A stretch of DNA of 64,000 nucleotides from Phlyctochytrium arcticum (lineage: Eukaryota > Chytridiomycota > Chytridiomycetes > Chytridiales > Chytridiaceae). The notes beneath the pieces are model-generated. The model searched no databases and was not told where the DNA came from. It saw only the letters and a list, made by a program, of their open reading frames with translations. Shown piece after piece: positions 4,313 to 58,930 of this stretch. Location of the stretch: assembly GCA_025602905.1 (NCBI GenBank), contig JAHLKI010000003.1, positions 868,001 to 932,000 on the forward strand, given 5' to 3'. Position numbers and translations under genes: made by a program. The first letter of the stretch is position 1. The number at the start of each line of letters is the position of its first letter.

Positions 4313-4319
4313 TACTGTA
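4313..4319. repeat. TACTGTA excision-type footprint (paralogue-confirmed)
   Basis: The sister module at 4684 has its own footprint one TA further along. Removing CTGTA here and CAGTA there makes the two module copies align without any gap over more than 30 bases. Confidence 0.8.
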
Positions 4320-4447
4320 CATATGCGAGGGGTCACTCTAAGGGGTGTATCTTTCTCAGACCCATCTGTCTCACTTAAAGGATACTGGGGGGGCTCTGGA
4401 GTCTGTAAAGGTGTTAGATAAGAGCTGATAATATCGGCCCATTCGTA

Positions 4448-4454
4448 TACTGTA
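4448..4454. repeat. TACTGTA excision-type footprint (paralogue-confirmed)
   Basis: This copy reads GTATACTGTACATACATGAC where the third module, near 4819, reads GTATACATACATGAC. The difference is exactly the 5 bases CTGTA beside a TA. Confidence 0.85.
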
Positions 4455-4683
4455 CATACATGACAACGAGGGAAATCATTTGCTTCGTGTGGTTGACATA
4501 GACATAAAATCTTCACCCTTTGAAAAAGTGTTGGAAAAACGACGGATGGTGCGTGTTCGGGAGTACATACATAAGGTGGAAGTGGAAGATCCATGTCGGA
4601 CTCGGTAGGGGACTCGGATTGATTTGCGCTTTTGTGCCCGTAAAACATTAGTTGAACGGTTGACAAAAGCCTTGAAAACTGCA

Positions 4684-4690
4684 TACAGTA
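4684..4690. repeat. TACAGTA excision-type footprint (paralogue-confirmed)
   Basis: This is the partner of the site at 4313. Without CAGTA the copy aligns gaplessly with the first module. A less clear relative, TACTGTA at 4785-4791, lies in the third module. Confidence 0.8.
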
Positions 4691-5317
4691 TGCGAGGGGG
4701 CATTCTAAGGGCTGGCTCTTCATCAGACCCATCTGTCTCAGTTGAAGAGTACTGGGGGGGCTCTCGAGTCAGTCAAGGTGTTAGTACTGTATAAGAGCTT
4801 CCAATATCGGCCCATTGGTATACATACATGACCAAGAAGGGAATCATCGCCCTCTGATTGATCCGGAGTATCTGAAGTTGACATTGGCAGAAGAGCTAGA
4901 CCCTGAGACAGGTCTTGGTCAAAGGATCAAAAGCGATGCTTAGAAATACATACAATATGTAAATAAGAAGGAAGTTCAATATCCATGTCAGACCACTCGG
5001 AAGAGGAGGGTATCGACATTGCTATGCGGGCTTGACCCTGCAAAATTGTTTGTAAACAAGTCACAACTATGGGACCTCCGACACGCACCCAGGCTGAATG
5101 TTGAACGGCTGCAAATCTGGGGGTTAACGGGCCGGTATGTATGGGTGTGTTCGTCTGATCTTGTGGGAAGATTGAGAAAATGAACCTCACGCGTTGCGCG
5201 ACGTGTTTGTTTATATTTCCAGATTTATTTGATCATTTGAGATTTATCATTTGGCTGGCAGGCACTCACCCTGGTGAGTACCTGGTCAGCGAGAATCGCG
5301 AAAACCAGGTCGGTGGC

Positions 5318-6180
5318 CTAGCCACCAGATCCTTGGGCACGAGTACCATGGGGAAATAAATGGGGGAATGCCATGCGAATGTCCCCACAAGCAGGCCATT
5401 GCAAAAGATGTTCAGGGGAGTCGGAAGAGTTGGTACCATTTGCAATATCGCGCACAGCCTGAACTAGCAGCTCTGGCTCCGTCTGATTTTGAGGATTAGA
5501 TGGTACAAATCTACCCAACACGAACCCGTGGACCCACAAGATCCAAGGTTGCCCGAAGGACGGTTCGTGGTGGAAGCTGGCTGTGGACGTTCCCATGAAG
5601 CGGTAGAGCTTTCAGATTGGCACGATTAGGGTGAATCTGGCGGTAGTACTTCTTATGTCGGATCAGCCATTGCAATGCGGCTTGAACTTTAAATCGACAC
5701 ACGCGAAAGTCCCGGAATCTTGTGCCATCCGCAGCGTCATAGCACAAAATCAGGGTTTCAACGCTGGACACCAGCCGGGGGAGCTTGGTAACAATAGAGG
5801 TAATATCTTAGGCAAAGTTAATGACATGACCGGAATGCCTGTATTGACCTGCAACAATTGGTCTGAGAGCGTTATACAGCGCGCAAACAAGCAAACTTAC
5901 TGTACCTCCTTTCAAAAGGTAGCAACTAACAATGGGATGAATTTGCGCTATGAGCATTTGTTCCATTAACGTCAATCCTTGCAGTTCGTCTGGAACAATC
6001 CCCAGGTCCATGTCATTGTTGGCGGAAAGTTTTTTCATCTTTTTCTCGTTCTGACATCGCCGACAAAAGCCGGCAATTTTGAAAATTTCCATATTGGGCC
6101 ATTGTTGCTTACAACATTGACAAAAGTGGACTGGGGTTGCCAATTTCAATTTTTTGCCAAATGTTTTCAGCAAGTTCTGT
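5318..6180 (-). pseudogene. DUF6570-type Helitron N-terminal fragment
   Basis: On the minus strand the segment begins near 6170 with a paired zinc motif (FCQCCKQQWPN, then FCRRCQNEKK) and the family line NDMDLGIVPDELQGLTLMEQ. It runs through LLKGG, an intron at 5849-5905 (acceptor TTGCAG), YRHSGHVINFA, VETLILCYDAADGTRFRDFRV, and a zinc-poor end around WPACGDIRMAFPHLFPHG near 5350. This is the N-terminal domain seen in many fungal and animal Helitron-like replicases. Here it is fused in reading order to the back of a different Helitron Rep (next entry) exactly where that element's helicase should begin. Frame changes near 5810 and 5590 break it. Family call from memory of the domain pattern. 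Confidence 0.65.
5898..5904. repeat. TACTGTA footprint inside a splice donor
   Basis: On the minus strand the donor reads GGAGGTACAGTAAGTTTG. Taking out CAGTA gives GGAGGTAAGTTTG, a perfect GTAAGT donor in phase with the next exon, so the 5 bases look inserted. Confidence 0.75.
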
Positions 6181-9100
6181 TGCTCCAAGTTGACGGAATG
6201 TAAAGGATGAGGCAAGGGGGTTTCTTGCTCTGTAAAGTCGACGGTTAATTGATGACGTCGATTCATCCTGTGTGCCAAAATGGAGGGGCCGGTGATCTGG
6301 GGGAGGGTTGGGAAGGCTTGCAAAGATCTGCCGTTTTTTGCCAGGATTTTGTCAATTTGGTGGAGTGTTTCGTTCAAAATTTCATCCGGACTTACGCGTC
6401 GTCTGCGCAGCAAAACGGGTCCATGTTGAATCCTGTGGGCCATATCATCTGACATGGATGCAAAGTGTTCATCCCATAGCTCCCTTGGATCGGTGGGGTT
6501 GCAGCAGAGCAAGAGGGCAACGAAAAGGTTGCGCACTCCAGCACCCGTTTGCCATCCGGATGCTTCAGTCATGGCCCGAGACAACTCCTCATCATCCTCC
6601 AAGAGTCCAAGCTCTTTGCATGCCGCCTTGAATGTGGGAAAAACTTGTCCGTTGACCGTCCGAAGGTCTTCCCAGCTAATAGGACCGCGTGCTGTAATCA
6701 GCAACAGGCGCAAGTAGAACCGTTCGCCAGATGTGGGATGGGCGAAAGAACCGCGGCCGACAGACTTTCCCTTTTTTCTTGGCTGCCAGGTGCGGGTCTT
6801 GGATATCCAGGTGAACACTTCCGGAAATTGTCCATACATTACAGTGCTGGCTGTTTGTGGGAAATCTTGATTGGCCTGGAAGAATGCCGTGATGTGGGTA
6901 TTGCGAGCTGCGCCGGGGCCGAAAAACCCTCGAGTGCTGATCGGGAAGATGGACCGGTAAGCGAAACACAGGAGGGAAGTTTTGGTGCATCTTGGCTCCA
7001 AACAGTCGCCACACTGCCTCAGGGGGGGAAATGAAGCGGGCATCCAGGTACTGCTTGATCGTCCTCTATGATTGGCTCTATATCAGGGCCGCTGGTCTGC
7101 CCCGTAACCTCAACCGTTGCCCGGTCATGCCCCTTGTGGATGTACTTGACGATATACTTGACGGTGGTAATTGTTGAGTGCAGCTCAACATTGACATGGC
7201 CGTTGTATTTCTTTGTGAGGTATGCGTTGTTGGGGACCACCCAGCGATTGTCGAGAGCTACTGACTTGGTGCGGACGGTCCTGCCATCGTCACGGCGGCG
7301 GTACTCTGGATAGCCATCTTCGGCAGCCTGGGTGTGACTGATGAATTTCTTGGGGAAGTCCTTGCTACAAACTCCGCCGTTGTCTCGACAGCAGGGGGCT
7401 TGGGGATTGGCTGTTCTGCACGGTCCGTGCATCATAGTTGTGGTGACTGTTTGGTACAGGAGGGGATCAGAGTGGCGGTCGGGGATTTTGGCGGAGATGA
7501 CACGGTCAATGTCTTTGGGGGTGATGGTGACATCCGCCGGTCTGACCCACATGAGAATGTGAATGTGGGGGAGCCCGCGCTTCTGAAATTCGATGGTGTA
7601 GGAGTGAACGATGCTTTCGCCAAGAACGCCTAAGAGGAATATCGTGGTCAGTCTTTGCAACGGAGCAACTTATGAGCAATTGAAGCCTACCTTTTTGAAT
7701 AAATTGTCCTTGAGTGACTTGATGCGGAGGAGAAAACTCCGGACAATCAGATCCGGGCGGTTGTTTGGTGTTTGGCCGGGGAGTAGGCATTCCAAAATCT
7801 CGGGCCAATTTGGGTTGCATGTGAATGTCACAAAGTAGGTACGTTTCCCAAAGACACCCGCCGATGCCATCGCATCTTGGTAATTTTGGAGCATGTTGCG
7901 GGGGGAGCCTACGTGACTGGATGGCAAGATGATTTTTTGTCCAAGTCTGCCCGCGTCGTGGTCGCCAGAGTTGAATGCATCCCTGATTCCCTGGTAGAGC
8001 TCGGCTCGCAAGTCTTCTTGATGAGTCCGGAGATAGTTGAGCCGGTTTTGCTCCACCACATATTGTTGGAAAAGTCGGCCGCCCCGTAGCAATGTCTTTC
8101 CTTCCCCCGCCCTTGACTGCATGCGGAAGGCGTAGAATTGGGAAGTGGTAACATGTTTGGACCGGTTCCTGCCCCGTCGCCCACCGTCATCTTCTTCCAC
8201 ATCACCACCGTCCTCCACTGCATCAGCGTCCCCAACTGCATCATCCCCAGCAGAAATGTGAAAGTTACCCCCAGCCAACGGAATGTCCAAATGCCAGCCG
8301 TCTTCACCGTATGGAAATAGTAGTGGGAATGCTGTGGGAAAAAACTTTGAGTTAGAAAAGAGGTGGATGTTGATTTGACCACATTCATTTACATACCTGT
8401 TGGCATATAAGCAGGGTGGTAGTCACTATTGCGCAGCAGAGGGCCGCTGGTGGTGGTGAGAACAATGTCGCGGTTTTCTACTTCTTCTGTCCCATCGCCA
8501 ACCATGATGGCCGCGACTTCATCGGTGGTGGGTAGATTGTACTGTATCGACGGGGGTCCTGGTTACGTTTATTGACTATGCGCCTCTTGAGGTCCGTTAC
8601 TTGATGGTCACTGGTAGCTTGAATGTGTGAACGGGCATTGCAAAATGACTGAGCATATGGGTTGTGCTCATAGATCATGCCTTGCAGCCCAGCCATAAGT
8701 TGCTTGTTGACACCATCGCCAGTCGCCGTACGACGATGCAGTTCTGGAGCGGAATCGTAGATATACACTTGGGCGAATTGCGGTCTGGAAAGAATGCCAG
8801 TACGTTCATCCACCTGGGGCAAGAGAGAGCCGATTCGATGCGTGAGGTTTCCGTGAATGCGGTAGGTCCAGAGCCCTTGCTGACCGGTGAATCTGGGATC
8901 CAATTTGACTCCCACAGAGGCAAAGGCCAGGCTAGAGTTGTAGGACCGGATGCTGGTCCGGAATTGTTTGTGCTGAGGACTGGGACTCATGAGATATAAA
9001 GCCAGAGGATCAGGAGTTTCGCGTAAAAGTGGGAGTGTCCCTTGGCCGTTGCTGCAGCACATGGAGAACATTGGGTTGGCTTTTGTCGATTTTGAGATCC

Positions 9101-9767
9101 GTTCTTCTATCCACATCTGTGCCCCACAGCTGCTACAAACTGCGTCACGCGGTCCAGGAGCCCAGCGTACGATGTTGTTGGGAAAACAAAAGCCGATAGG
9201 TCTTGTACGATCATCCGTTGGTGCAGGGTCCGTGTTGAGTTGATTCTCTTGCGCAGCTGTTTGAGCTCTCCTTTCCCATCGCATGCGGTTGCGACGTTCA
9301 ATAGCCGATTCCTCCACCACCACGTGCTCATCCTGAACAATAGCTTCTAAAGAACGTGGAGCTAAGTTAGAACAAAGTAGGTAAGCAGCACAAAATATCA
9401 CATCACAAAACCCACCTTCAGCATTCATTGCGGCAGCACGTCGTTCACGTCGCAGCGTGCTTCTCCGATCTTTCGCAGAGTCTTCCTGAGGCTCATCGTC
9501 TGTAAGGGCAAACATTTCATTAGTACGTGTTCAACCTCATAGCGTGGGAACATAACTACCTTGGGCATCCACCAATGTCACTGCTCCAATAGCGGTAGTT
9601 AAGTTGTCGAGTTGTTTGGCCTGAGCTCGCCTTTCGCGCTGAAGACGGTTTCGTCGCTCCCGTTTGCTTTCAGTTGTGATCTCTTGTGGGAGTGCTGGTA
9701 GATCTGGCATTTTGATATGACTGGAATTCGAGGGAGGGTGGATTTCTGCCCCTCTTTTTATACGCAA
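6181..9767 (-). pseudogene. Helitron RepHel, Rep half only (element A)
   Basis: Minus strand, start near 9767. N-terminus has repeated basic RRNRLQRERRAQ-like segments, then a zinc site (CSSCGAQMW, MCCSNGQGTLP), the Helitron_like_N region (LRGGRLFQQYVVEQNRLNYLR, LPSSHVGSPRNMLQNYQDAMA, FVTFTCNPNWPE), and the HUH nuclease: RGLPHIHILMWV carries His-Ile-His and KYIVKYIHKG the tyrosines. Two introns are clear: 8332-8396 and 7630-7690. The gene is broken by a 5-base footprint at 8540, frameshifts near 7060 and 6985, and is cut near 6170 at VNLEQQNL, the point just before the Walker A loop in the related element at 25.8-30.4 kb. The helicase is missing and replaced by another Helitron's N-terminus. 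It would have been a rolling-circle transposition initiator. Confidence 0.85.
8540..8546. repeat. TACTGTA footprint causing a frameshift in Helitron A
   Basis: On the minus strand CGATACAGTACAATCTA becomes CGATACAATCTA when CAGTA is removed, giving RRYNLPTTDEVA. The related Helitron at 26.7 kb reads RRYNLPTADEVA at the same place, so the restored frame is right. Confidence 0.9.
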
Positions 9768-11223: not shown

Positions 11224-11784
11224 GGACGCGTCTAGTCTTGGTTTGGACTTGACAAAGCCTCCCACAAAGCGTCGGAGCACAGGGTGCGGATCAACCGAGC
11301 ACCAGTACGACCATGTTCTGAAGCAGTGTGGGAAGGTTCGGAAGGCAGCTCCCAAGCCCAAGACTACTGGACGAGGTCGAGGAGGACGCAGAGGACGAGG
11401 TCGCGATGGTGGTTCTACGCGTGCGTGAAGTGTTGACGTCCGTAATCAACATTCGTTGCTATGGCAATCTGTCTTTTTTTGTTGCTGTCTTGTTTCTCTT
11501 TGACCACCTGTTCTATTTATTGTCATAATTTTTCATTCTCAATGTTATCATAATCGTCGTTGGGTGTGTCTGGCAAAAATCTGTCAAATTGTGGACATTG
11601 TTAAAAGTGTATGAACATAAACAAACATTGTTACGGGGAAAAGTTGTTAAACGTACGACGCCCAGATGAAGAACTAGGTCCGAAACCGTGGTTTAGAGGC
11701 TCTGGGAGCACATCTGGCAGCACAAGGACAAAAAGTTGTCCTAAAAAGGATAAAGCGCGTCCCCCAGTGGGAGAACCCCGCATT
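11224..11784. other. Intergenic, Gly/Arg-coding patch then nothing recognised
   Basis: 11204-11428 can encode a short RGG-rich tail possibly belonging to the MULE fragment. From 11430 to 11784 nothing is recognisable. Confidence 0.4.
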
Positions 11785-14389: not shown

Positions 14390-16390
14390 AGGCATGGGCC
14401 AGGTGTTCCGAGCCCAGGGTAGGTGTAATGTGTGAACGTTCAAAATGAAGTTGTCATCTTCAGTGTGCGCCCATACTGTATGGTCTTGCGCCGTTCTTGG
14501 ATAATGCGCGAATGATGTTGGGGACTGCACCCTCCAAAGACGCAATGGTGTTGCACGTTTACTGCACTCTCAAGGTTTTGGGCCGAGATCAATTCATGGC
14601 GATGGGTCCTGATAATGATGGGACATCCATGGAACCTTTCATCCCAATGCTCAAAAAGATAAATGAGGCAAAAGACGCATCCAGACTCGCTGCTTAAAAT
14701 CTTTTTCAATTGTCCGACGCGCCCCGCTGTCAGTCCAACAAAATCACCAGGTCCAAATTGCGTTTCGTTGGAAAACTTCATCCAACGCCAGCGCGTGCAC
14801 ATTGATATGGATGTTGATTGATGAGCTGCCGAACGAGTGCTACTGTACGGGATTGGTTGTTTGCCATGTTGACTAGACACTTTCAGTACACGTTCTTCTT
14901 CATTCGTATCATCCTTCTTCAAACGTGGCGATGGTGTTCAATCATGCAAATACCAGAATTCCGCATAGTCCGACATACCCAAACTCTCACGTACAGTATC
15001 ATCCCTCATCTGGTCCCGAAGTTTTCTACTCGCACGCTCGTAGGTATCTTGTTCGTTCTTCCAGAATCCACCACTGAAAACATGTGGAAGTGCTTGGAAT
15101 TTGGCAAACCTCTCTGCGGCATTGCGTCCTGGAGCGGCACGGTTGGTATGGATGACCGCCATTCGCATTATCTTGTTGGAAGCTTCAAACTTCTCCACAA
15201 TGTTCAACAGCCCAGGTCCAAACCGTCGAATATCATCCAGCAAGTGTACAAGAATGTGGAACTTCTTTTTTGCAAACACGTCGCTATTGGCCGCGTATGC
15301 TGTGACAAGCATGGTGTCGATGGCGGTCCTCAAATCCTCTTCGTAACGCTCAAGTGAGTCGATGGTGCGGACCCAGCACATCTGCACTAGTACGGCCGCG
15401 GCTTGCCATGCCTCCATCCACTTCTGATCGACAAATCCGTCAAAGGCAAAGATGGCAACCTGAGCAAAGGCACGGAAATCTTTGCCAACTAATGATCCAT
15501 GGTATTGAACAAACTCCTTTCCGGAGAATCTTCTGTCCAGTCCCGTATGAGCCAAGGATGTAATCTTGAGGGAAAGATCGGGTTGACGCGTCTTTGAGAT
15601 GCTTGCCATAATTGCACAGTAGAGCCATTTCAGCACACCAAGTGACACTGTGTGGTGCAAGTCCACTGGCGTATCAAGGTATCCATTAAAACCTTTTACC
15701 CAAAAAATGGGATTGATGAGCTCTTCCATGGTACCAGAAGCATTTTTAGCTGCAATCGCCGCGTCGAGACCTGCAGTCCTCTTGATTACGAGGAGCTTGG
15801 TAATAGTCTTCTCTGCATATTGGCACCGTACTCCTTGCGAGGTTTGTAATTTGCACAATGCAGTTTTGGTACTCGGTACGCATGCCTGATTGATGTGACC
15901 TTCAACTTGCAACTGCGTTTGAGCCCAGTCGCAACGCGTCCCGAGTTTGGTATACTTAATAATATCTTCCGCAGTCTCCAACTCTTTGGTAGCTGTACAG
16001 TATCGACAGAAGCGGTATCCAGTCTGCATCATCATTGTCGATGTCAGCTCACTGTGCATCGGGTTGTCGCCCAACAAGGCAAACAACCCTCCGACAACCA
16101 GCACTGGTTTCATTGACTTTGCGTCATAGGCGTCTATACCCTGCTCAAGCCCAGATACGAGAGAGGACACCAGGCCTTCCATGAGCTCCAAGGGAGAGGC
16201 AATGTTGGATGTAGCCAAAAAGTGAGGGTTATAATCCTTTTGCCGTTTGTGGTACGGAAGAGCGGCCAATTGGAAGAAGATGGTATAGTGACAGTTCCAC
16301 GTTTTTGACTTGTTCCCACTGGCATCATCAATCTGTACAATCAGAGGACATCTCAGCGCAACCCGGGTTTTTACTGACTGTGCCGGCAGG
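14390..16390 (-). pseudogene. Plavaka-type (CACTA-like) transposase, central and C-terminal part
   Basis: Minus strand. An intron acceptor (GGCACAG) near 16370 leads into CPLIVQIDDASGNKSKTWN, the family line with the catalytic DD-SGN motif, then YNPHFLATSNIASPLELMEG, LFALLGDNPMHSELTS, RFCRYCTA (zinc pair), NPIFWVKGFNGYLDTPVDLHH, KKFHILVHLLDDIRRFGPG, MAVIHTNRAAPGRNAAERF. A TGA at 14938-14940 interrupts; the same frame then continues QFGPGDFVGLTAGRV and VNVQHHCVFGGC, and after removing a footprint at 14474 ends with WAHTEDDNFILNVHTLH, all standard for the C-terminus. It is a DNA cut-and-paste transposase. The N-terminal part seems to sit at 19802-20899. Flanking CACTA termini were not found. 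Confidence 0.75.
14474..14480. repeat. TACTGTA footprint in the Plavaka C-terminus
   Basis: Minus strand: the frame reads KTIQYGRTLKMT; without CAGTA it reads KTIWAHTEDDNFILNVH, the conserved end of Plavaka transposases. Confidence 0.85.
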
Positions 16391-19801: not shown

Positions 19802-20899
19802 TTAATGGGGGATGGTACTGGCCACGTAGATGCGCAATCGGGCCGCTCCATTTGTCCAATGTAATCCAAGAGCGCGACGATCTGCTGCAAGTAATGTTCC
19901 TTCAACAGACAAAACTTGATCCACAAGGAAAATATTGTCTATGCAAATTACTTGGTTCTGGTTGGTCGCAGCAAAGTCGTCCACAAAGTATTGGATGTTG
20001 TTGTGTTCGGCCATTGGTGCGCGAAAGTGAGGATCTGTGGGCCATTTCTCGGCCTGATAAAGCTCTCGTATGCCGGCATTGGTATTTCTTTCCCCGTAGA
20101 ATCTCAAATGTTGCATAACAATAGGACTTGCTATTTCCTGCGTGACAATTTTGGTAATGTCCTTGAGGAAAATTTTGTTCTTAAAAAGTGTGGTTTTTTC
20201 CAAGATATTGTTGCCCGTCTTTGTTTTCAGCTTAGCCAGAAATGATTTGACGGATTTGAAAGTTGGAAGCTTAAGACCCATAGCCTTGCCCCACCACCAA
20301 ATTGCCTTCAATGTGCTCTCTGACATGACATGTCGCGGGTGCATGATGAGTAGTGAGCAGATACTGTAGCAAAATTGCGATTTGGGAAAGGGAAGCAGTC
20401 GTCATCATCCAAATCCTCCAAAGAAGCCGTACTTCGTAATAGTTCCATATGCGATTCAGGCAAATTCTCACCAAAAGCACCATTGATATCCGCTTCGTCA
20501 TCCTCGTCATCTTGGTCATCCCAATTTTGCACAGTAAAATCATTGTGGTCACTTTCCGCAGCCAGATTTTGCATCGACCTGATGAATTTGTCCTCTTCCT
20601 GCATACTTACCAGGCCCTTCATGTGCTGGTGCATGTGGATGTGTTTCAGGCGGGCCTGGATGATCTTCTGTTGATTGGCGGGCAGCCTGCTGGGCGGCTT
20701 CTACTTGTTGCTGATGGCTTTGACTGGCCAAATGCTTGTTGAGTACTGAGGGATAGTCATTCATGGAGACCGAGCACTGCTGACAGACTACTCGACCAGG
20801 CCCATTTCGTTGAAAGACGCCGTACTTCTCCTGAAGGCCCAGAGGATCCACACTGTCACAAAGTTCATCGTAACCTTCAGTGTCAGAGGTGGTTGGCAT
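19802..20899 (-). pseudogene. Plavaka-type transposase, N-terminal part
   Basis: Minus strand from ATG at 20899 (MPTTSDTEG). A C2H2 finger follows (VVCQQCSVSMNDYPSVLNKH and SQSH), then an acidic stretch (NWDDQDDEDDEAD) after a frame change near 20620. A 5-base footprint at 20362 shifts the frame again; without it the line reads NRNFAICSLLIMHPRHVM, followed by STLKAIWWWGKAMGL, typical of the region before the catalytic core. Then NNILEKTTLFKNKIFLKD, MQHLRFYGERN, YQAEKWPTDPHFRAPM and QVICIDNIFLVDQ match the family pattern of HLHFYPE and QAKRW. It stops at 19802. It probably once joined the part at 14390-16390. Confidence 0.65.
20362..20368. repeat. TACTGTA footprint in the Plavaka N-terminal part
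   Basis: Minus strand TTTTGCTACAGTATCTGC; deletion of CAGTA joins the acidic upstream frame to the downstream frame that carries IMHPRHVMSESTLKAIWWW. Confidence 0.85.
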
Positions 20900-25820: not shown

Positions 25821-28800
25821 ATGTCTACGAGATTGATTGAAGAACGCGCGGCTGCACTCATAGCACAGCATGGGAGTGCATCTGCTGCCACCAGTCAGGT
25901 ACAGCAGCAACAGCAAGTTCCCCAACGCGAGCCGATCGTCCCTGGATCCGCAGCCGACCCAGCCGCCACCACCAATGATCGACTCAGAGCATTAATTGCT
26001 CAACACGGAAGCGCTGTTGCCGCCCAACAGGCTCTGGCAGCAGCACGAATCATTGCCCAACCCCGTGCCAGACCAAGACCTACACCGCAGATACCGGTTG
26101 GGTTGCGCACTTTCCAGGACACGGACCCTGGAGCCCCAAAGCGAGCTAATGTTGGGAACCAGGATAAGATATGCCCGCTGTGTTCTGCACGGGTATGGGA
26201 AAAGGAATCGACAGGCCGACAGAATGGGATGAAAGTGTACGGCATCTGCTGTGCAAAGGGCAAGGTCGATCTTCCTAATCTGCCAGAAACACCAACGATG
26301 CTTGCACGGTTGCTTACGGCAGGAGGACCTGGTGAGCAACAAGCATTGGCATCCCGTAAGAACATACGGAAGTTCAACACGGCACTAAGTTTCACCTCCC
26401 TTGGAGCCATGATTGACGAGAGAGTGACTGGAGGAGGCGGGCCACCAGTTTACAGCATCCGGGGTGAAGTAATGCACCGGCTTGGGTCTCTGCTCCCCGA
26501 AGAAGGGCAAAGTCCCATGTTTGCCCAGTTTTATGTCTCTGATCCGGCGACAGACCAGACCCACCACCCCCTGACAATCTCCGAACCGCAAGCCCCATTG
26601 TGTGAGGAATTGCGGCAGATGCTAATGGACGTCAACCCGTATGCCCATGCATTCCGGATGGCCTACGAAAGACTCCAGGATGCAGAAAATCCCCCCGTCA
26701 ACCTTCGATTGCGACTTCTGGCAGACCGGGCCAGGGATGGTCGTCGCTACAACCTGCCAACGGCAGACGAGGTTGCGGCGTTGATGATTGGTGATGGGTC
26801 TCAGAATGTAGTTGGTAGAGACATCATTATCGAAGAAAGGAATGGGGGGTCAACGCCGGATCTATGAGCACTATGTTGGTTTTTATGCGCTGGGTTATCC
26901 CCTTGTTTTCCCACGGGGTGAAGATGGGTGGCATCCCAAACTCAAGGTTCGGGATCGTAGTGCCGCGGCGCCTGTTGCAAGTGACTCCGAGGTGGAGGAG
27001 GTCCCAGATGCACAGGATGGTGACGATTTGTCTGGCAAACAAAAGTTTGTTTCAATGCGGGAGTTTTTGGCTTATCGCTTACAAGTGCGACAGACTGACG
27101 GCGTTGCATTGATGCGCGGGGGTCGGTTAGTCCAACAATTCATGGTGGATTGTTACGCTTCGCTGGAACAAAATCACCTCAACTACCTGAAGCAGAATCA
27201 GGACAAATTGAGGGCTGATGTCTACCAAAGGCTACAAGATGCCGTTATGGGTGGCGACTTTGATGGGAACAGCATTGGCAGGCGCATCGTTCTTCCATCA
27301 TCGGTCACTGGGGGACCAAGGCACATGATGCAGAACTATCAAGATGCAATGGCCATATGGCAACCTTTGGCAAGCCGGATTTCTTTGTGACTTTCACCTG
27401 CAACCCCAACTGGCCAGAGATCCAAAACGCACTGCTGTCAGGGCAGACGGCCAATGACCGTCCCGATTTGATTGCCCGCGTGTTCCATCTCCGTAAACGC
27501 GCGCTTACCGATGAGCTGTATAAGGGGCACATTTTTGGAAAGACTGTTGCACATCTGGGAGTGATTGAGTTCCAGAAACGGGGGCTACCGCATACCCATA
27601 TGCTCCTTTGGTTGGATGAGGGCTCCAAAGTACGCACTGTAGATGAGATTGACCGTGTGACCAGTGCCAAACTCCCTGATAAGCGGAAGAATCCTTTGGC
27701 CTTCGACACCGTCTCCAAGTACATGATGCATGGGCCATGTGGGGTTGGGTTTGCAAATGCACCATGTATGAAGGATGGAAGGTGCTCGAAAGGATTCCCG
27801 CATGAATTTCGACCGTCAACCTCTGTGCAGCGAAAAGGATACCCACAGTACCGCCGCAGAGACAATGGAGAAAGTGTGTTGGTGAAGAATGTGCCGTTGG
27901 ATAATCGCTGGGTCGTCCCCCATAATGTCTACCTCAGCACCCGCTACGATGCCCATATCAATGTGGAAACCGTCAGCAACGTCGGGGCCGTAAAGTAGCT
28001 ATTCAAATACGTTTACAAGGGCCACGACAGGGCAACTGTAGTCATCGAACGGGATGCCGCTCCACCGACCACCAACGCTGAACCCGCAGCTGTGGAGGGT
28101 ACGGATGAAATCAAACAGTACATGGATTGTCGCTATGTTTCCGCCTCTGAGGCCATGTGGCGGTTGAGTCGATTCGCAATGCAGGACAGATTTCCTTCTG
28201 TCGAGCGTCTGCCCACCTACCTACCAGGACAGCAGATGGTTACATTCGACGCCGCGGACGACCTTAGGGCGGTTTTGGAGCGGCCAGTCAAGAACTCGAT
28301 GCTGGATGGCTACTTCCTTGCCAATCAGCATCCCGACCCCGCAGCATTGGCAAACACTCTGACCTACAGTCAGTTCCCCACCGAGTTTGTTTGGAAATCA
28401 GACCAGCGCAAGTGGACCATCCGAAAGAAGGGGTCCTCCATTGGCCGACTCTATTTTGCGCCTCCCTCATCCGGCGAGCGGTACTATCTGCGGATGCTGC
28501 TGACAACCGTCAAGGGCGCCACATCCTTCGAACAGCTCCGTTTGGTGCACGGAGTACAGCATGCCACCTTCAAACAGGCATGCATTGGGTTGGGTTTACT
28601 CGAGGATGATGATGAGTGGCAAGCGATGCTGACAGAGGCCGGAGTTTGGCAAACCAGCAAACAGTTACGGGAACTATTTGGGTACACGCTGATCTTTTGT
28701 GACGTGACGGATCATTCCGCCCTTTGGAACGCTCATTGGCAGAACTTGAGCGATGATCTGGAGCACCGGGCCTGTGCGGAGACAGGGAACCCGGACTTGG

Positions 28801-30428
28801 TGCTCGGCGAGGCAGATCTGCGTAATCGGGCGCTGTTCGAGATCGAACAAGACCTGCTGGCGCATGGACGGAACCTCACGTTCTACAACCTGCCACCATC
28901 CACCTACGTTCCTATGGTGAGCCTGCCCAATCGTCACGTCCAAGCGGAATTGGATTTCGACCGTGTTGCTCTGACTACGGAAGCAGATGCAAACGTTGCG
29001 ATGCTGAACGTCGACCAGCGCAAGGCATACAACGAAATTTTGGACTCTGTCTCTCAGCAGAAGGGTACAACGTTCTTTCTGGACGGTCCTGGCGGCACTG
29101 GCAAGACCTTTGTGTGGAATATGCTCATGGCACAGCTTCGAGGGGAAGGGAAAATAGTACTTGCGGTTGCCTCTTCTGGGAGTGTAGCCCTTCTCTTGCC
29201 CGGTGGTCGGACAGCTCATTCAAGATTCGGGATTCCCATCAAGTTGCATGAGGGAACCACTTCACGGATCACAAAACAAAGCCCTGTAGCCGAGGTCTTA
29301 CGAATGGCCGACCTTATTATCTGGGATGAGGCACCAATGCAGCATCGACATGCCTTCGAATGCGTTGACCGGATGCTTCAGGACATTATGGACAATGACA
29401 AGCCATTTGGGGGAAAGACCGTAGCATTGGGGGGCGACTTTTGACAAATTTTGCCTGTGATCACCAAGGGCAGAAGAGAAGACATTGTTGCCGCCTCTCT
29501 TCCCCGTTCCCTGCTCTGGCAAAAAGTCACCAAGCTCTGCCTTCATGTCAACATGAGGGTTATGCGAGAGGACACTGTTGCGGCAACCACTTTCGCGCAA
29601 TGGGTTCTGGAGCTGGGGAACGACACACTCCCAAAGACGGCCGCAAACGAAGGCGAAGAGCGCAAATGGGTTGCCATCCTTCCAGATTTGCGTTTACCAG
29701 CGGATAAGGAAAACCTCAAGGGACTCATTGATCACGTTTACCCGGCGTATCAAGATAAAGTCGGCAACGCCCAATACCTCATGAAGAGGAACATTCTGAC
29801 TTCCAAGATTGAGGACGTGGACCAAGTGAATGACATTATGCTGCAGTCTCTGGGTGGAGAGACTGAGGAGTACCTGAGTGCTGATTCCGTAGACACCGGT
29901 GTCGCCGAGCAAGAAGGAGCCCTGTTGGCATCCGCAAGCTACCCAGTTGAATATCTCAACTCTTTGAAAGTCAGTGGTCTGGCAAACCACAAGTTACAAC
30001 TCAAAACGGGTGTTCCCATTATCCTTTTGCGGAACCTGAATCCCTCATTGGGGCTGTGCAATGGGACCAGATTGATTGTCAAACGCCTGGCTCGGAGGGT
30101 TATCGAGGCAACTATTCTAACCGGAACGAATATCGGCACGGCGGTATTCCTCCCACGGATTTTGATGACCACAAACGAAGGGGATCATCCCTTCATCTTG
30201 AAAAGGCGTCCGTTTCCGGTTAAAGTTGCATATGCGATGACCATCAACAAGAGTCAGGGTCAGACAATGACACAGGTTGGATTGTATTTGCCGATGTCTG
30301 TGTTCTCACATGGACAACTTTACGTGGGAGTCTCAAGGGTGACTTCACGGGCCAACCTTCGCATTTTGAATATGGAAGGTCCAAATGGGTGTGTCTGCAA
30401 TGTTGTTTACAATGATGTGCTCCAGTGA
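25821..30428 (+). pseudogene. Helitron RepHel, nearly full length with four breaks
   Basis: Starts MSTRLIEERAAALIAQHG, contains two copies of the ALIAQHGSA motif, a zinc site (CPLCSARVWEKE, ICCAKGKVDLP), Helitron_like_N (LMRGGRLVQQFMVD, LPSSVTGGPRHMMQNYQDA, FVTFTCNPNWPE), HUH site RGLPHTHMLLWL, LFKYVYKGHD, then a Pif1-family helicase: Walker A LDGPGGTGKTFVWN, Walker B LIIWDEAPMQ, GGDF-QILPVI, and [14 protein letters not shown] with VGVSRVTS. Breaks: an extra base in a G run near 26850, a 1-base loss near 27357, TAG at 27996 (at the tyrosine before LFKY) and TGA at 29442 (an arginine codon). It would initiate and unwind rolling-circle transposition. No introns needed, unlike Helitron A. Confidence 0.92.
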
Positions 30429-42350: not shown

Positions 42351-44968
42351 TGCGGCAAACAGCGGATTATAGTTGTTCAGGTATAGGGATCCTTCTTGAC
42401 GCTCCATAGTAACTGACACCTCGGGAACTTCCGTGCATGGGACTGCCATTTCAGGTTTGAGGAATTGGCAAAAATATCCGCTGGGAGTCCGAACGCTCTT
42501 CTTGAAGCATGATTTTGCGTGTTGCCACAAATGCACTTGATACAGGAACAGGCTGGTTTCCAAGTTCAGGACATCCTTGGCATTGATTGGGTCGAGGAAG
42601 CTCGAGACGGGAATGGCGTCCCAAGTGCTATTCCGGTGTGCTGCTTCCTCCTGCATCCACAAGTCAAGGCTTAGGATACCGCTCCTGCTGGCGAAGTGCT
42701 CTGCTGATTGTTTGGCCAACTCTAAATTTGAGAACCCGACTTCACAGCTGGGTCATGTAGCGGATATCGGGGCGGTCCAATTGCTTCTCGCACGGCGGAA
42801 TGCGCGCAACGGTATGGGCTCTGCAACCTAGGATGCTTTGCAGCTACTGCAAAAGGGGTGGTATGGGATTGGGGACGTGCTAGACACTATTGACGCAAGG
42901 TAGTCGGCGACGTTATTGAGGTACAAGGGCCCGCTTGGTGTCCTAGCCAGCTTCATGAATAAAGATGTTGTCGACGGCAATTCCGCAACCCATAGCAAGA
43001 AATGAGCGTGCAGATTACCGGTTGCTTGGGTCTCAACCGATCCAATGTATGCTCGTACAGTTCCAAGCGCCCCACCACCACGCACTGCCTGCCCTTTGAC
43101 AGTACCCCATCCCAAGAACGATGTTATTATCACGTTGATAACCCAATCGAAGTATCTGGCAACCCCCGCTGGATTTCCGCCAACTGCCTCCCTTTGCTCC
43201 TCCTTCGACATCATCTCAATGCGTTTGTTTATCTCTGCGACTGCCATGTCCGCCCCCAAGAATTCGGTGTATGTGACAATGCAATACGAATTCATCGAGT
43301 CTGGAGTGACAGTAAAGAAGATGTTGGGCATTCCCAGTGTATTGCAATAGGCGTTGACGCGGTGCAAAGCTGCCTTTCGTTCCTCATTCGACCCCTAATA
43401 CGACGACATCCCCGCACATACTCCATTCTGTAACGACAGCACCCCGCCTGCGACGGTGTCCATAGACGGTAGTGGAAGAGATCGTGCCGCCGCTTCAAGG
43501 TCCGCGTAGTGCTGAATCTCTTCCATGGTGACGGTGGATGCCATTTCCGCTCCAGTGGGCTTCAACCGGCACCAAAGATATATGGATTCATTGGCTCTCT
43601 TACGTGCCACAATGTCAAAAGCCATGAGAATGAAGGACGGGTGCTTGGCAAACCTTTGCTCCGGCAACCGCAACACATAGCCTATCCATTCTTCCAGTGA
43701 TATTGGGTTCCTTCGATGCTCATTGGGGCCTCCTCGCCCGTACGGCAATAGTTCAGGAACGCGGAGGTACATGCTATCCAAATCTGTATCGGAAACGAAG
43801 GAAACCTGCCCTGAGTGTGTGTTCTCAGATCGCTGGTCAATAATAAGGGAAGTTTCGCTGTCCAGGTGTGACATCGACCATGACTGATTCCTGCCCGCAG
43901 GCATCTCCGGCTCCCGATCTGTGCTGCTGGAGGCATGAATTGTTTTCGCGAGCGCTTCGTACTCTGGATCTTCTTTCTTGATGTTTGTCACTACTGTTGT
44001 GGTGTCGAACATTGTTGCAGGTGCGTCATGGTTGATATTGACTTTTTTGTATACCCAATTGTGTTGCATAAAAAATCCAAGTAGTTTGTAGGTATGGGCC
44101 CGGTGGACGCGGTACTCCTTGGCTATCCGTAAAGATGCTTCCTTCGGGAACGCGCCAACTGTTGTCACAAAGATATCGCCTGGTGTCCCTACGTCACGCA
44201 GCAGTAGCAACACCGGCGGTGCCGGGTTCGCCAGCATCGCATACGAGTGTCCCTTCAATCGTCGGAATACGCCCCCATGCACTACGGAAATGTAATGCGC
44301 TGCCTGACTGGGTGCCGTCATGCAAAAGTCACCTTGGATGCCCCTGAATACAGCTATGTCTCAAGATTGCCCATGAATAACCCGTTGGCAATGGCAAATT
44401 TTGGAGGTGTATTCGCTTGCCGGCGAAGAGACGAAATGCATGGCGTGTAGAAGTGCATGAGTAATTCGCTCCACTCTTCCCCCCGCGCTGGTGAGAACCC
44501 AGCACGGGACAGCATAAGTCCTCCCAATCTGGCATCCATGTCTCTGCAATTGTACTCTTCCACCAACCGGCAGGGGATATCGAGAAAGGGGGCACTTAAT
44601 CGGGATCACATCAATGACAGCGGTAGATTGGGGGAACTCAATGCTAGTTTCTGGATCGCGTTCTTGGTGGAGAGTGTCCCGCATACTGCGCACACCTCCT
44701 TTTCCATGTGGTCATTGGATAAGGTCGTTGTGCACCGAGCATAAACCTGCTCCAGTGGCGTCTGTGGAATCGCACCTATGGCTTGGTTGTGCTCGATGGG
44801 TTCAATCTCTGCTGCCATGTAGCTTGTACTCTGTGCGCGTGACTGGGTTGCTCTACGTTGTTGTGCCGTCTCCTCTGCGACCACTGATGCCTGCTGCCGT
44901 TTTCTTCTCCGAGCCTCTAAGTTGCGTCTGGTTTGTGCTGCTCTGAGTTTGGTTGCACGACTAACCAC
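42351..44968 (-). pseudogene. Helitron B, copy A: N-terminal and Rep part, truncated
   Basis: Minus strand. Probable intron at 44961-45025 (GTAAGT ... GGTTAG), then basic NLEARRRKRQQASVV, a zinc pair (EVCAVCGTL and FYTPCISSLRR), PPKFAIANGLFMGNL, ISVVHGGVFRRLKGHSYAM, LRVPELLPYGRGGPN, MAFDIVARKRANES. A TAG at 43395 interrupts, then the same frame gives MPNIFFTVTPDSMNSY, FLGWGTVKGQAVRGG and the HUH site GNLHAHFLLWV. TGA near 44603, a frameshift near 44335 and another near 42820 add to the decay. It ends at 42351 within NNYNPLFAA, where the Rep fossil begins. Helicase absent. Same family as 52960-58390. Confidence 0.8.
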
Positions 44969-46854: not shown

Positions 46855-46866
46855 TACAGTACTGTA
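46855..46866. repeat. Double footprint TACAGTACTGTA
   Basis: Two heptamers overlap by TA, as expected if a second insertion and excision hit the TA left by the first. No paralogue is available to prove it. Confidence 0.5.
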
Positions 46867-48693: not shown

Positions 48694-48713
48694 CTAGTGA
48701 ACCAAAGTCAAGG

Positions 48714-50678: not shown

Positions 50679-50739
50679 GTTTGAGGTTGAGTTGAGAGGT
50701 GGTAAAGGTGAGGAGATCCAAGTTGGGGGCAAGAGGGGT

Positions 50740-52959: not shown

Positions 52960-53840
52960 AAACAGAATCACAGCAGAAGTGCGAGAAGCACAGAACCAAA
53001 GACAGCAAAGGTGTCGCGCGAACAACGAGACATGCCGAGAAAGGGCACAGCAAGTACGCAACCAGCGCGGCACGATTGCCAGGGAAGGGCGATATACGAC
53101 GTCGGAGTTGAATGAGATAGCAGAGAAGCCAATATTGGGTCCATTGCCGAAAGAGACCCTCCAGGCGGTTTACAACAGAACTCGTTTAGCGCTTTCCGAT
53201 GAGCAAATGGCCGAAGGAGTATGCTGTCTGTGCGGAACCCTTCATTTGTTGACGGACATTCACAAGGTTGCCACAACGTCGCCTCATGTGCCAATTCAAG
53301 CGATGGCCCGAAGATTGCGTATCCCTGTTGGGCATGAACTTCCACCACGCCTTTCTTTGGAATATGACTGCAGTGATATCGATCCACGCTTCTCGGGGTT
53401 ACTGTTGTCGCATTGGGGGATATCAGAGAGTGCGGATATGGGAACATCGGATGTGATCATCAACTTCTGCACCCCATGTTTACGATCACTGCAACGTCCC
53501 GCGGAGACCCCACCGCGATTTGCCGTTGCCAATGGTCTTTGTATTGGAAATTTGCCAAAGGAGTTGTGGGACGGAGCAACGACAACGGATTTCGCAATGA
53601 CTGCTCCTTGCCAAAACGCGCACTACATATCCGTTGTTCATGCCAAGACATTCAACCGACTCAAAGGCCACTCCTATGCAATGTTGGCCGATCCTGCACC
53701 CCCGGCCATGTTGCTGCCAAGCGGTCTTGCAAAGACTGGTGATATTTTCGTTATGATTGTGGGGAGTTTCACGTCGGAGGCGCAACAACGGTTGGCAATG
53801 GAATACCGCGGCAATCGGGACAAGATACACCAACTCCTCA

Positions 53841-53847
53841 TACTGTA
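53841..53847. repeat. TACTGTA footprint causing a frameshift in Helitron B
   Basis: CTCATACTGTATTCTAC without CTGTA reads CTCATATTCTAC and restores LLIFYKDNNEVYQE, which aligns with KLLGFFMQHNWVYKK in copy A. Confidence 0.85.
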
Positions 53848-56717
53848 TTCTACAAAGACAATAATGAGGTTTACCAAGAAATCGCAATCAAGGACAACTC
53901 CCAAGATCATGTTGGCGATAGCAGCCTTTGGACATCCCATGTTGGCAAAGAGGCAGCCAACTTCGATGGTATCATGGGATCTTTGGAAGCGTACGAAAGC
54001 AACCATCGCACTATGGAGCCATCCGCAGCCCCTATGGATGAACTGCAGTCAGAGCCGCATCCCATCACGTTCGAGAAAGAGACGTCCATGGTGATAGACA
54101 TGCGAACAAGTGAAGGGCAATCGGAGCAAATCCAACGGGCAATCCAAATGCTAGTTCACGGGGCAGAACGGAACAAGATTTTGCTTAAGAGGCTGTCAAC
54201 GTTTGTGTCGGATGACAAGGGGGCCAGTCTATATGCTAGGGTGCCGGAGCTGCTACCATACGGGCGGGGAGGGCCGACGGGAACGAGACCCAATCCTATA
54301 TCGTTAGAGGAATGGTTTGCATACACGTTGCGGTTGCCACAACAGAGGTTCGCAACCGACGAATCGTTTGTATTGGTAGCATTCGATATTGCAGCGCGCA
54401 AGAAGGCCACACAGTCGTTACATCTGCGCGTCCGCCTAGCCCCAAGAACTGCGGACTTGGCAGCAACAGTGACGTTGGAGGAAATTGAGCGATACGCCCA
54501 ACACGAGGCCGCGAAACTTTCCTTCGCCCCACCACCACCACCAGAGTCGAATGGGAACGTGCTGTCTCTGCAAAACGGCGTCCGAGCAGGAATGTCATCA
54601 TATTAGGGGTCAAACGAAGAGCGGACAGCGACGCGAAACCGGGTCAACGCCTACACGAACGAACTCGGGTTGCCCAATCTCTTCTTCACCGTACCGCCAG
54701 ATTCAATCAATTCATTTAGAGTCATCCAATATTGCCAATATCCAGTAGTCAAGGCGGCGGTGGACGAGTTCAACCCCAGACTCAGAGAAAAGGCGAACGA
54801 TAGTTGCTAGCAATCCAGTCGCGCTGGCGCGATATTTCAACCGGGTCATGTGTTCCATTATCACGGCGTTCCTTGGATGGGATATGAAGAAGAGGGAGCC
54901 GGTCAAGAAGGGAGGCGCCTTAGGAGTGGTGCGAGCTTTTACCGGGGCGGTTGAGAACCAAGGAACAGGAAACCTACACGCACCCATGCTCGTGTGGGTG
55001 TACAATCTGCCATCAACAACTGCTCAATTTGCCAAGATGGTGAGGGACCCCCAACAACCGAATTTTTTAGAGGGAATTCGACAATACATTTCTTCCATCG
55101 TAACGGCCAAGTCACCCGTTCCGCACCATCCGTACTGCGGCAAGTGCTATGGTCCACTGGAATTCCTGCCAATACCGCTACGTTCATATAAGCGTGGACG
55201 AACCAACTGGACGCGTCCAATGACGGCAACATGCGCAAACTGTGGCGAGGGGTACTCGGATCTGGCAGTAGCGTTAAACTCATCAGATTACATGGCGAGC
55301 TGAAGCGGGATACTTATCAAGGATCTGTGGACCAAAGAAGAAGCTGTTCTGCGAAATTGCGATTGGGAGCCGCGGCCATACGCGTCAAATTTCGATGAAA
55401 GCGACGCCAAATCCCGATTGAACTCCGAGACCAGCCTCTTCGCATTCCAACTGCACGACTGGAGACACTGGAAATCTTGCTTTACAAAGAGCGCGCGCAC
55501 GCCCACTGGTAGTCTATGCCGTTGGACCCTGTGTCAGAAACAACAGTCAGTGAACTTTCGGAGTTCGTTGAAAGGCCAAACGGCAGCCTGTACGTGAACG
55601 CATTCAATCCGCTTTTCGCCGCAATCTACAAATTCAACTCCGATCTTCGTCCACTGTTGGGAGGAGAAGCAGCCGGCCTCAAACTCTACGTCCTCAAATA
55701 CTATTCAAAAACCAAGTCACCTTCGAGAAGATACATACAATATACGTGTCCGCCCTCAGAAAAAGCATGATGCGGGAAGAGGAGCAAATGGCCAACGGGG
55801 AGCAGGTGCCGCAGTGGACACAGGGCTTCCGGCGCATGAGGCGACAGGTGACGGATCTAAGCGGCAAAATGGAAGTGGTGTCGACGATGGCTGCCCTTTA
55901 TCTAGAGAGAAGGTCGGCGTTCTACGAATCCCATAACACTGTCAACCTTTTGGTCAAATCCATCATGAACGCGGTTACGTCGGAGGGAGAGGTGGATGTT
56001 GTGTTTGCGGCGGAAGACATCAGTCATGATGTGTGGGCTACAGCAGCTGAGGGCAATCAGGTCGAAGAGCAGCCGGACAGAGTGCAGTCAGAAAAGATCT
56101 TCAAAGCTATCAACAACGGCACGGATTACCTTGCCCACCCGACAACACCAGAACTTGAAGACATTTGTCTGTACGACTTCACGGCAACATTCGTAAAGAA
56201 GAAAGGAAGATCAGGAGGTATTCCATTCGCCGACGGCCACCTGCAGAAAAACAGTCACCTGCTCGAGAGAAGACGGGAAGTCGTGTTCGTAAACGTCGTC
56301 GCCAAACAGATAGCGGATTTGTCGTGTGAAGATTTGCCCGAGATGGAAATGGAGAGAACGTGCAAAATACTTCTGTTCCTATTCAAACCATACCGGAGGC
56401 TGGAAGATTTGAAAACAGCGTCAACGTGGGAGAAGTTGTTCCTGGATTTCACCGAACAAGAAGGCAACCCCGAGTACTACAAGTCGCTGCGAAAGTTTCT
56501 GGCGCACAACGAACGTAACTTGGAGGAAGAGTACAAGGCGCAACGGCCGGATGAGGTTGTCCAAGTAACATCGCAATACGGAGAATATCCTGAGGATAGT
56601 GAAGAGGAAGGGTCGGAGGCGGGTGATGGAGAGTACGAGGAGGTGGACGACGACGAATTCGACAAAGAGAATGGATCAGCAAGCGTCCACATTAACCAAT
56701 ACCCGTGCGCCAAAGAG

Positions 56718-57050
56718 GCCACACATTTGGCGACGAAGCTCATTGCGCCAGATCCAAGTATCACAGTACCGTACATAAACGATTTGGGGGCGTTCGATGC
56801 AGCCGCGGAGGCATTTACAGTACACCAGTGATGAGTAGGCAAGAAAACGGCAAAATGGTCGACCGAGTGTTGAGCTTCACAACAGGCCACACAGTTGGCG
56901 ACGAAGCTCATTGCGCCAGATCCAAGTATCACAGTACCGTACATATACGATTTGGGGGCGTTCAATGCAGCCGCGGAGGCATTTACACCAGTGATGAGTA
57001 GGCAAGAAAACGGCGAAATGGTCGACCGAGTGTTGAGCTACACGAGACAG
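56718..57050 (+). repeat. Tandem duplication of about 166 bases within Helitron B
   Basis: The block starting GGCCACACATTTGGCGACG (56718) recurs at 56884 with about 95 per cent identity over the unit. The first unit carries an extra CAGTA that the second lacks. The duplication adds about 56 codons and, with the footprint, a stop at 56829. Confidence 0.9.
56816..56822. repeat. TACAGTA footprint (paralogue-confirmed)
   Basis: First unit GCATTTACAGTACACCAG; second unit GCATTTACACCAG at about 56979. The only difference is the 5 bases CAGTA at a TA. Confidence 0.95.
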
Positions 57051-58390
57051 TTCCCGACGAGAGAAACACAAGTGCAGCAATATGAAGCGTGCCTGGGCGA
57101 TTTGGCGTGGGAGGCGACGGAACCACAAGACATATCCACCCTATGGAGTTTCGCGACGATCGGAGAGATATCCAGGACGTTCAGTTTGAACCCAGAACAA
57201 CATGATGCTTTCGTAGTGTTGGCCTCGGGTCTGATCAAGCAGTTTGCGGAGGAGGACGACAACAATCTCGCCGGCGGCACTGGTGAAGAAACGAATCAGA
57301 TCATGGCATCGATATGGGGGAGTGCGGGAACGGGGAAAAGCGATATCCTTAAAGCTCTATTGAAGCTTGGCGCACTGTGGGGCCGGCCAAACGCGGTGAT
57401 GACGACGGCACCGACCGGCATTGCGGGCCCCAACGCAGGTGGAATGCATCTTCACAAGCTGTTCAATTGGACCATACATTGCACGAGGCGGAAGCAAGGA
57501 GCAACAGCGAGCGATTTGGACACCTTTGCCCCATTGAAGTTGTTGATTGTTGACTACTCAGTAAACAGTATCTGGATCTTTGGTCGACAACGTTAAAGAT
57601 GGTCAAAGGAAAGCCGTACAGTGCGATGGGGGGAGTGTCGGTTGTTGTATGCGGGGATTGGATGCAATTGTCAGCATGGTCAGGCTCGAAACTGTTTACG
57701 GAACTGTCGCCGTCTGATTCTTCGAAAACTGCGAACGGACACCAAATATACCACTCCATCGAAGACATATTTTTCCTGACCCGGAATATGCGCCAAGGGC
57801 CAAGGACACCATATGCGGATATCATGTCGAGGATGCGAACCGGGCAAGCGACAAGTATCGATATCGCCAATTGCAATAAGATGGTTATCCGACCAGACGA
57901 GCAGATGCCTGAAGGAGCGGCAGTCAACATCCGGCCTATACTGACAACGTCCAACCGACTGCGATGCGAGTTCAACACAGGTTGCTTGGAGGAGCTGGCG
58001 CGGAAACGAGGAGGCACCCAGTACCGGTTCAAGGGGAAGGTCAGCGCGACGGCAAGAGGACGCATTACGGCGCACGAGGTCCGAAGTCTGCGAAAGCTCC
58101 CTGACAACAAAACGGGACATTTCGCCCTGAATCTGGATCTCATGGTGGGATGCCCGATACAAGTGACCAAAAATGCCGACCCGAAGCAAAGATTGCTCAA
58201 TGGAACTCTTGGGACGGTTTTGCACATCCAGTTGCACCCAGATACAGTATGCACAGTGGAACAGTTGCCCAACGGGATAACATGACTTCACAGCGACAGA
58301 CTACCCGACATAGTGTTTGCCTGCCTGCACGGATACGACGAAGTGGAATTCCAGCCCGGGCTGCCGCCAGGAGTAGTCGGACTTTGGCCG

Positions 58391-58930
58391 TATGACAGTA
58401 TCAATCCAATCGACGGAGGAGATTCGGCGGTACTTCCACGACGGTCTCGAGCGCGGTGGCCCGTTCTGGTCTTTACTCGTGAAACATGTTTTCGGGGGTA
58501 ATCGAGGGTCAAGCTTAACCCAAATCCAAACCGCCGCCGCCCAACATTTGCAAGACTGGGGATGCAACTCCGATGGGGAATACTGTATCTCGCTATCGCT
58601 GGCGCACCCATTGACAGAAAGGGAAAGGGACCTGCCACTGCCACCACTGAGCTCAATCAGCCAGCCAAGAGCGGGGGAGGAAAGAGCCCCAAATCCAAAG
58701 TCAGCGCAGCGAATGTCAGCAACCGCGGCAAACCCTACAACCGCGGCAACCCCACCTCCGGACCCTCCAGCTCCAAGGGCAAGGACAGCGACAAGAGGCC
58801 TGCCAAGAAGAACCCCAATGACCAACATAACGGGAATGATCCCCGGATGCATTGTTACATTTGTGGGCTTAGCGGCAACCACTGGACCGCTCGCTGCCCT
58901 GACGCCAAGCAGAGAGACCCAAAAAACTAG
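58391..58930 (+). pseudogene. Ty3/gypsy gag, C-terminal part
   Basis: The segment STEEIRRYFHDGLERGGPFW and AAAQHLQDWGCNSDGEY in one frame joins, once the footprint at 58581 is removed, to LAIAGAPIDRKGKGP in the next, then a basic linker and the zinc knuckle CYICGLSGNHWTARC, ending at 58930. The 5' part of gag and the 5' LTR are missing; the Helitron B helicase abuts at about 58390. Confidence 0.7.
58581..58587. repeat. TACTGTA footprint in gypsy gag
   Basis: GAATACTGTATCTCGC without CTGTA reads GAATATCTCGC and makes one frame of DGEYLAIAGAPIDRKGKG. Confidence 0.8.

Follow-up and report, generated by a model that had tools for sequence, protein, structure and literature searches.

We analysed a 64,000-nucleotide stretch of the genome of the chytrid fungus Phlyctochytrium arcticum (the window; C3:868001-932000, where C3 is contig JAHLKI010000003.1 in an assembly of 31.48 Mb and 91 contigs) in which the heptamers TACAGTA and TACTGTA, together written TACWGTA, are frequent. 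Plain numbers below are positions in this window. The window is largely old transposon sequence. It has 22 reading frames of at least 250 amino acids (aa), of which 20 were scanned: 11 have Pfam matches and 9 have none. The matches are to Copia-type and Gypsy/chromodomain retrotransposon domains, reverse transcriptase, PIF1 helicase and DUF6570. Where a heptamer-bearing frame could be named, it is part of transposon-like sequence (DUF6570 at 53841, DDE_1-related at 4.3-4.7 kb); the frames at 8540, 14474 and 58581 gave no Pfam match. Most of the TACWGTA heptamers in the window are very probably footprints left on excision by Tc1-type transposons that have CAGTGAC(T/C)(T/A)CCAAAA at their ends, next to a TA. 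An earlier note on the window had proposed such an origin for the heptamers. That reading is largely right in kind, and its scope is narrower: the phenomenon is regional, lies mostly in old repeats and concerns one class of frameshift.

Regional excess of the heptamer

Sequences of the form TANNNTA fall into 32 strand-symmetric classes, one of which is TACWGTA. The window holds 18 TACTGTA and 14 TACAGTA, i.e. 32, in line with the count of about 31 in the earlier note, versus a total of 117 (149 minus 32) for the remaining 31 classes, which have a mean of 3.8 and a maximum of 11 (TACAATA). This puts the estimated number of scars at 28 of the 32 when the mean of the other classes is subtracted and at 21 of the 32 when the largest is. 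The expected count is 2.9 by a first-order Markov model and 17.6 by a maximum-order model, in whose 6-mers the footprints are already included. In a 264-kb region made up of the window and 100 kb on either side (C3:768001-1032000), 98 heptamers compare with 11.9 and 50.9 expected by the two models. There TACWGTA ranks first among all 7-mers for over-representation by both models; in the window alone it ranks first by the first-order and second by the maximum-order model. Five of the 98 are a single site multiplied within an 83-bp tandem array at C3:940968-941386 (L015:8968-9386), which has 5 copies with one TACAGTA apiece. Relative to the genome average, the Poisson P value is about 4e-10 for the window and 5e-17 for the 264 kb when the array is taken as a single site.

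Across the whole genome there are 4110 TACWGTA, or 13.1 per 100 kb, close to the roughly 3840 that 1/4^7 would naively predict; in C3:768-1032k the density is 37 per 100 kb. At the start of C1 (892 kb, covered by the first 100 matches listed) it is 11.2 per 100 kb. The control TACNATA (5441 + 5425 matches over 4 classes) has a genome-wide rate of 8.6 per class and 100 kb, and occurs at 8.5 on the start of C1 (first 100 matches listed) and at 7.9 within the 264 kb (83 over 4 classes), where it does not rise. The strong excess of the heptamer is regional rather than genome-wide. A uniform genome-wide excess is ruled out, as the genome total is only about 1.5 times the control class; the genome-wide enrichment anticipated by the earlier note is modest, but the one within the region is strong. 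In two flank-restricted pattern samples, the first 100 of 273 and the first 100 of 213 matches suggest further dense stretches on C2 and C4.

Copies and reading frames that differ by five base pairs

We compared the 264 kb and 24 loci of about 3 kb with themselves and counted heptamers for which a partner sequence lacks exactly 5 bp. The count takes alignments of at least 80% identity and at least 100 bp, and places present in overlapping loci were counted once; we left out 435 alignments below either limit, 31 in which a sequence met itself or the same place, and 4 views in which a site stood within 12 nt of where the alignment ended. Such a partner exists for 9 of 43 distinct TACWGTA sites versus 0 of 124 other TANNNTA sites (P 2.5e-6), as expected of a Sleeping Beauty-type footprint, which adds 5 bp at a TA. 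This comparison had been put forward in the earlier note as a test of its proposal, and it comes out in favour. At TACAATA, 1 of 15 sites has a partner without exactly 5 bp. Five of the nine heptamers lie in the window (4313, 4448, 4684, 56816 and 58581) and the remaining four at C3:780770, C3:860731, C3:1028133 and C4:1081452. Two censuses of gaps at the same identity limit gave a similar picture. In the first, four of the five 5-bp gaps fall at TACWGTA and one at TACAATA, and 0 of 65 gaps of other size lie near TACWGTA. In the second, all 7 rows with a 5-bp gap are at TACWGTA (6 distinct sites), compared with 2 of 76 gaps of other size. One further difference was seen between the L001:2862 region (C3) and L004 (C80), which are 99.2% alike: 4 bp differ at a TACTGTA adjoining TAC, perhaps two differing outcomes at one TA.

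The heptamers might stem from few independent excisions and have been multiplied through copying of the repeats that carry them, as the 83-bp array with its fivefold heptamer does on a small scale and as the several heptamers common to copies would allow. This is improbable, because each scar with a scar-less partner is found in one copy and no other. The two at C3:1028133 and C4:1081452 are even reciprocal: of two copies that are 98% identical, each has one of these scars to itself. Moreover, 72 of the 98 heptamers fall within none of the paralogue alignments of at least 150 bp found in the 264 kb.

Reading frames lead to the same sites. Proteins of stop-to-stop frames of at least 100 aa were searched against the 264 kb, which revealed 65 loci with a frame change inside otherwise contiguous homology. 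A heptamer lies within 22 nt at 8 of the 12 loci with a shift of +5, compared with 1 of the 53 loci with other shifts (P 8e-7), and that one, at 14474, has a shift of -7, which is the same frame class as +5. Two of the four +5 loci that have no heptamer carry the near-variants TACAATA and TACAGGA. Counted from the heptamers, a break occurs within 12 nt of 6 of the 29 situated in homologous sequence, versus 4 of 149 other TANNNTA, 66 of 4707 TA and 40 of 2626 random positions. One of these 4 TANNNTA overlaps the heptamer at 53841 and another is the TACAATA at C3:800153. Footprints are the leading cause of +5 breaks, yet just 9 of the 65 breaks are marked by them, and they are therefore one cause among several; the earlier note's single cause for many frameshifts applies to the +5 class and does not extend to breaks in general. 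The TACAATA/TATTGTA at C3:800153 (L008) behaves like a footprint, either mutated or variant: its partner is shorter by exactly 5 bp, and next to it lies a +5 frame break.

The individual sites in the window vary in the kind of evidence they offer. Modules at 4.3-4.8 kb are 82-88% alike to loci carrying a DDE_1 transposase, and three heptamers in them are absent by exactly 5 bp from related sequence: TACTGTA at 4313-4319 from partners on C29 (L041) and others, in 5 of 5 alignments; TACTGTA at 4448-4454 from the second module in the window and from the DDE_1 loci L039 and L041; and TACAGTA at 4684-4690 from L039 (C19) and L041 (C29). The TACTGTA at 4785-4791 is a possible footprint, with partners that differ by 6 bp instead of 5. 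TACAGTA at 56816-56822 belongs to a 168-bp tandem duplication: one unit carries it, and the second, 93.5% identical, shows a sole gap, of exactly 5 bp, at the heptamer. TACTGTA at 58581-58587 likewise corresponds to the sole gap, of exactly 5 bp, in an alignment with the paralogue C3:965744-964420 (97.6% over 1330 bp), and the frame switches there too.

For other sites the evidence comes from protein homology. The frame changes at TACTGTA 8540-8546 in comparison with two outside homologues, P0121 (51% identity) and P0125, which match frame -2 to 8538/8541 and then frame -1 from 8541/8547. TACTGTA at 53841-53847 is inside a frame with a DUF6570 match, and two paralogous frames match frame 3 up to the heptamer and frame 2 after it, a shift of +5. 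TACTGTA at 14474-14480 is a probable footprint with weak homology, the frame passing from -3 to -2 relative to two distant paralogous frames of 27-34% identity. At 46855-46866 the sequence TACAGTACTGTA contains two overlapping footprints. Its partner, C6:1138970-1138991, is 10 bp shorter with a bare TA; the comparison consists of 22 matched flanking bases, from which both 5-bp units are missing, and we estimate the chance of such a match at about 1 in 10,000. The TACTGTA at 5898-5904 is spanned by no homologous sequence among those compared. For TACTGTA at 20362-20368 a pattern search found no second copy, and paralogous proteins that begin 7-9 residues ahead of the heptamer pass through it in one frame. 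In all, nine of the eleven places named in the earlier note as showing or suggesting an added 5-base unit are supported: the three repeat modules, the tandem duplication, the frame repairs at 8540, 53841 and 58581, the double event at 46855 and, more weakly, 14474; 5898 and 20362 are not.

Window positions 1-4850 together with C3:864933-866457 hold a DDE_1 (pogo/Fot1-like) element with relatives L038-L041, into which a Copia-type element, with an RVT_2 frame at 47-2539, seems to have come to lie, splitting it in two. DUF6570 is a companion of Helitrons, and DUF6570 and PIF1 helicase pieces at 5808-7043 and 43395-44321 on the minus strand and at 52979-54094 and 28092-30428 on the plus strand suggest decayed Helitrons.

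Resident Tc1-like families and the origin of the scars

The genome contains three Tc1-like families, A, B and C, that extend from CAGTGAC to GTCACTG between flanking TA dinucleotides, as well as 29 matches to PF13358, 10 of which are on C3. Tc1/mariner elements that have CAG...CTG ends and encode a DDE transposase, which the earlier note had suggested looking for, are therefore present. Family A is 1.6 kb long, its copies are about 99% identical, and its ends read CAGTGACTTCCAAAAACG next to a TA that is found at both sides in 4 of 5 copies. Family B ends in TACAGTGACTACC, with TA at both sides in 4 of 4 copies. Family C ends in TACAGTGACCTCC and is represented by a TA-flanked element of 1560 bp at C3:774680-776239. 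The terminal inverted repeats match over 28-36 bp in family A and B copies and at 22 of 22 bases in family C. The pattern of the shared end, with one mismatch allowed, finds 35 ends genome-wide versus 1 for the reversed control, and 15 of the 35 (43%) are on C3, which makes up 5.5% of the genome. The open frame of family A encodes 338 aa with DDE_3 and HTH_Tnp_Tc3_2 domains; the latter scores above its cut-off in both A and B, giving these families the paired helix-turn-helix. The best relative of the family A transposase in the PDB is SB100X (E 2.8e-62, aligned over residues 113-338). Its catalytic triad, assigned from sequence motifs, is D148, D240 and E275, with a spacing of 34 between the second and third residues (DD34E). 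Among 8000 database candidates scored, at least 5084 proteins match this transposase, the closest of the 120 listed at 73% identity. Taken together, the TA duplication, inverted repeats, transposase and helix-turn-helix place these elements among the DD34E Tc1-like members of Tc1/mariner.

Sleeping Beauty, a reconstructed fish Tc1/mariner element, has the same TAC(A/T)GTA footprint, TA target, CAG/CTG ends and DD34E transposase, whereas the families described here are natural elements, known from their sequence, of which near-identical copies reside in the genome. As in Sleeping Beauty, copies of the end motif recur in family A about 200 bp inside each end (16 bp, L034:1108-2711), but they are inverted relative to the neighbouring outer copies. 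In Sleeping Beauty the inner copies are direct repeats. Its ends are named IR/DR (PMC3432063). Family A would thus work in the manner of Sleeping Beauty, but its inner motifs are inverted and do not form such direct repeats, so that a place in that subgroup is not implied. The fungal Tc1/mariner elements impala and mimp of Fusarium, which move by cut and paste, have ends that begin CAGTG, and impala leaves a 5-base footprint; we set our families beside impala by description. Impala is listed as active in PMC2874221. Mimps are short and non-autonomous, whereas a search of the 264 kb for short non-autonomous relatives found one TACAG...CTGTA pair (at least 17 of 22 bases), namely the 1560-bp family C element; the same inverted-repeat search with six control end-words gave 0, 0, 1, 1, 0 and 1 pairs. 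Fot1/POT2/pogo-type (DDE_1) elements are TA-inserting Tc1/mariner relatives that are also present in this genome, with 20 PF03184 matches, but the DDE_1 loci examined have no CAG...CTG terminal repeats and are therefore unlikely to be the source of the scars.

The central A or T of the footprint stems from an A:A mismatch. Sleeping Beauty is described as cutting three nucleotides inside the element, which leaves three-nucleotide 3' overhangs from which end joining makes the footprint (PMC7827188), given as TACAGTA or TACTGTA (PMC4378557, PMC3432063). By analogy, a Tc1-type transposase in this fungus would cut one strand of each end three bases inside, so that the flanks would retain TA and three-base 3' overhangs. 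If the repair route is also that of Sleeping Beauty, end joining would pair these overhangs with a central A:A mismatch, and its resolution to A or T would yield TACAGTA or TACTGTA, five bases longer than the original TA. Families A, B and C themselves may have made the scars, and most heptamers that have no testable partner are probably scars as well.

The 35 recognisable ends of these families genome-wide compare with 67-84 excess heptamers in the 264 kb alone (98 minus the largest or the mean other class), and family A, with copies about 99% alike, is recent, whereas some scars lie in sequence that is 80-90% alike. Both points would suit genuine scars made by another, now lost TA-inserting element with CAG...CTG ends. 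We consider such a source rather unlikely, since the resident families carry the right ends and a Sleeping Beauty-like transposase, their ends are concentrated on C3, and cut-and-paste elements need not stay where scars were left. Local hopping is described for Sleeping Beauty (PMC7827188), and the share of family ends on C3 fits it. Repeat-rich DNA also tolerates and retains insertions, which is a second possible cause, and the density on C3 may reflect tolerated insertions, local hopping, or both.

Several observations weigh against interpreting the heptamers as footprints. At 30 of the 43 distinct aligned sites the heptamer is the same in every partner, and these are therefore either inherited or no footprints at all. 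Likewise, 23 of the 29 heptamers in protein-homologous sequence are accompanied by no frame break. Footprint density shows no gradient with repeat age, the youngest class (9 sites, 5 of them in one array) being no poorer than the others, and the flanks of the 98 sites in the 264 kb give just a weak preference for A at -3. The window contains no family end and no full element, so excision itself is unobserved, and the genome as a whole lacks strong enrichment. Finally, in the review PMC2874221 the footprint of Sleeping Beauty is given as TAG(T/A)CTA, at odds with PMC4378557 and PMC3432063. The conserved sites, and an excess over the maximum-order Markov model of just about 1.9-fold, would also be compatible with TACWGTA being a functional or compositional word (a near-palindrome bound by a regulator, splice signals or biased composition) that is dense here by happenstance. 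Such a word would account neither for the exact 5-bp presence or absence between copies and the +5 frame breaks at the heptamer nor for the flat density of the TACNATA control, and we regard this explanation as very improbable indeed.

Double heptamers and a possible record of excision

The double heptamer TACWGTACWGTA occurs 40 times genome-wide versus 9 for the reversed control, with about 8 expected from 4110/512. It is found at 46855-46866 in the window, where it has the bare-TA partner described above, at C3:940718 and at C3:979017, among other places. With 22 tandem and 18 inverted cases, both orders occur alike, so that slippage alone is insufficient as a cause. Random hits alone would not explain the 40 occurrences, unless the majority of the heptamers are scars or the elements prefer footprints as targets. 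The filled-in variant TACAGCTGTA occurs 0 times in the 264 kb. We tentatively suggest, as a possibility open to considerable doubt, that the heptamers in the repeat-rich DNA of this genome form an archive of excisions that can be read by counting and far exceeds the resident copies, and that elements re-enter their own scars above chance.

Both the mechanism and its product are already known; what is new is that a repeat-rich region of one genome displays the scars in bulk. In the literature searched, outside which most subscription journals lie, we found no report in which TAC(A/T)GTA is counted over a fungal genome to serve as a record of footprints. Single excision footprints are called almost undetectable in genome comparisons (PMC10691877). 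A TA-poor genome with old repeats brings them into view in bulk and makes past jumps legible even where no jumping gene remains. This offers a count of past end-joined cut-and-paste events that is separate from the resident copies, and opens the way to studying over what distances elements hop and how they break the frames of other transposons. If the archive and the re-entry hold true, the number of end-joined Tc1 excisions could be estimated from a single assembly, and footprints would be both a fossil record of these elements and a preferred target for them.

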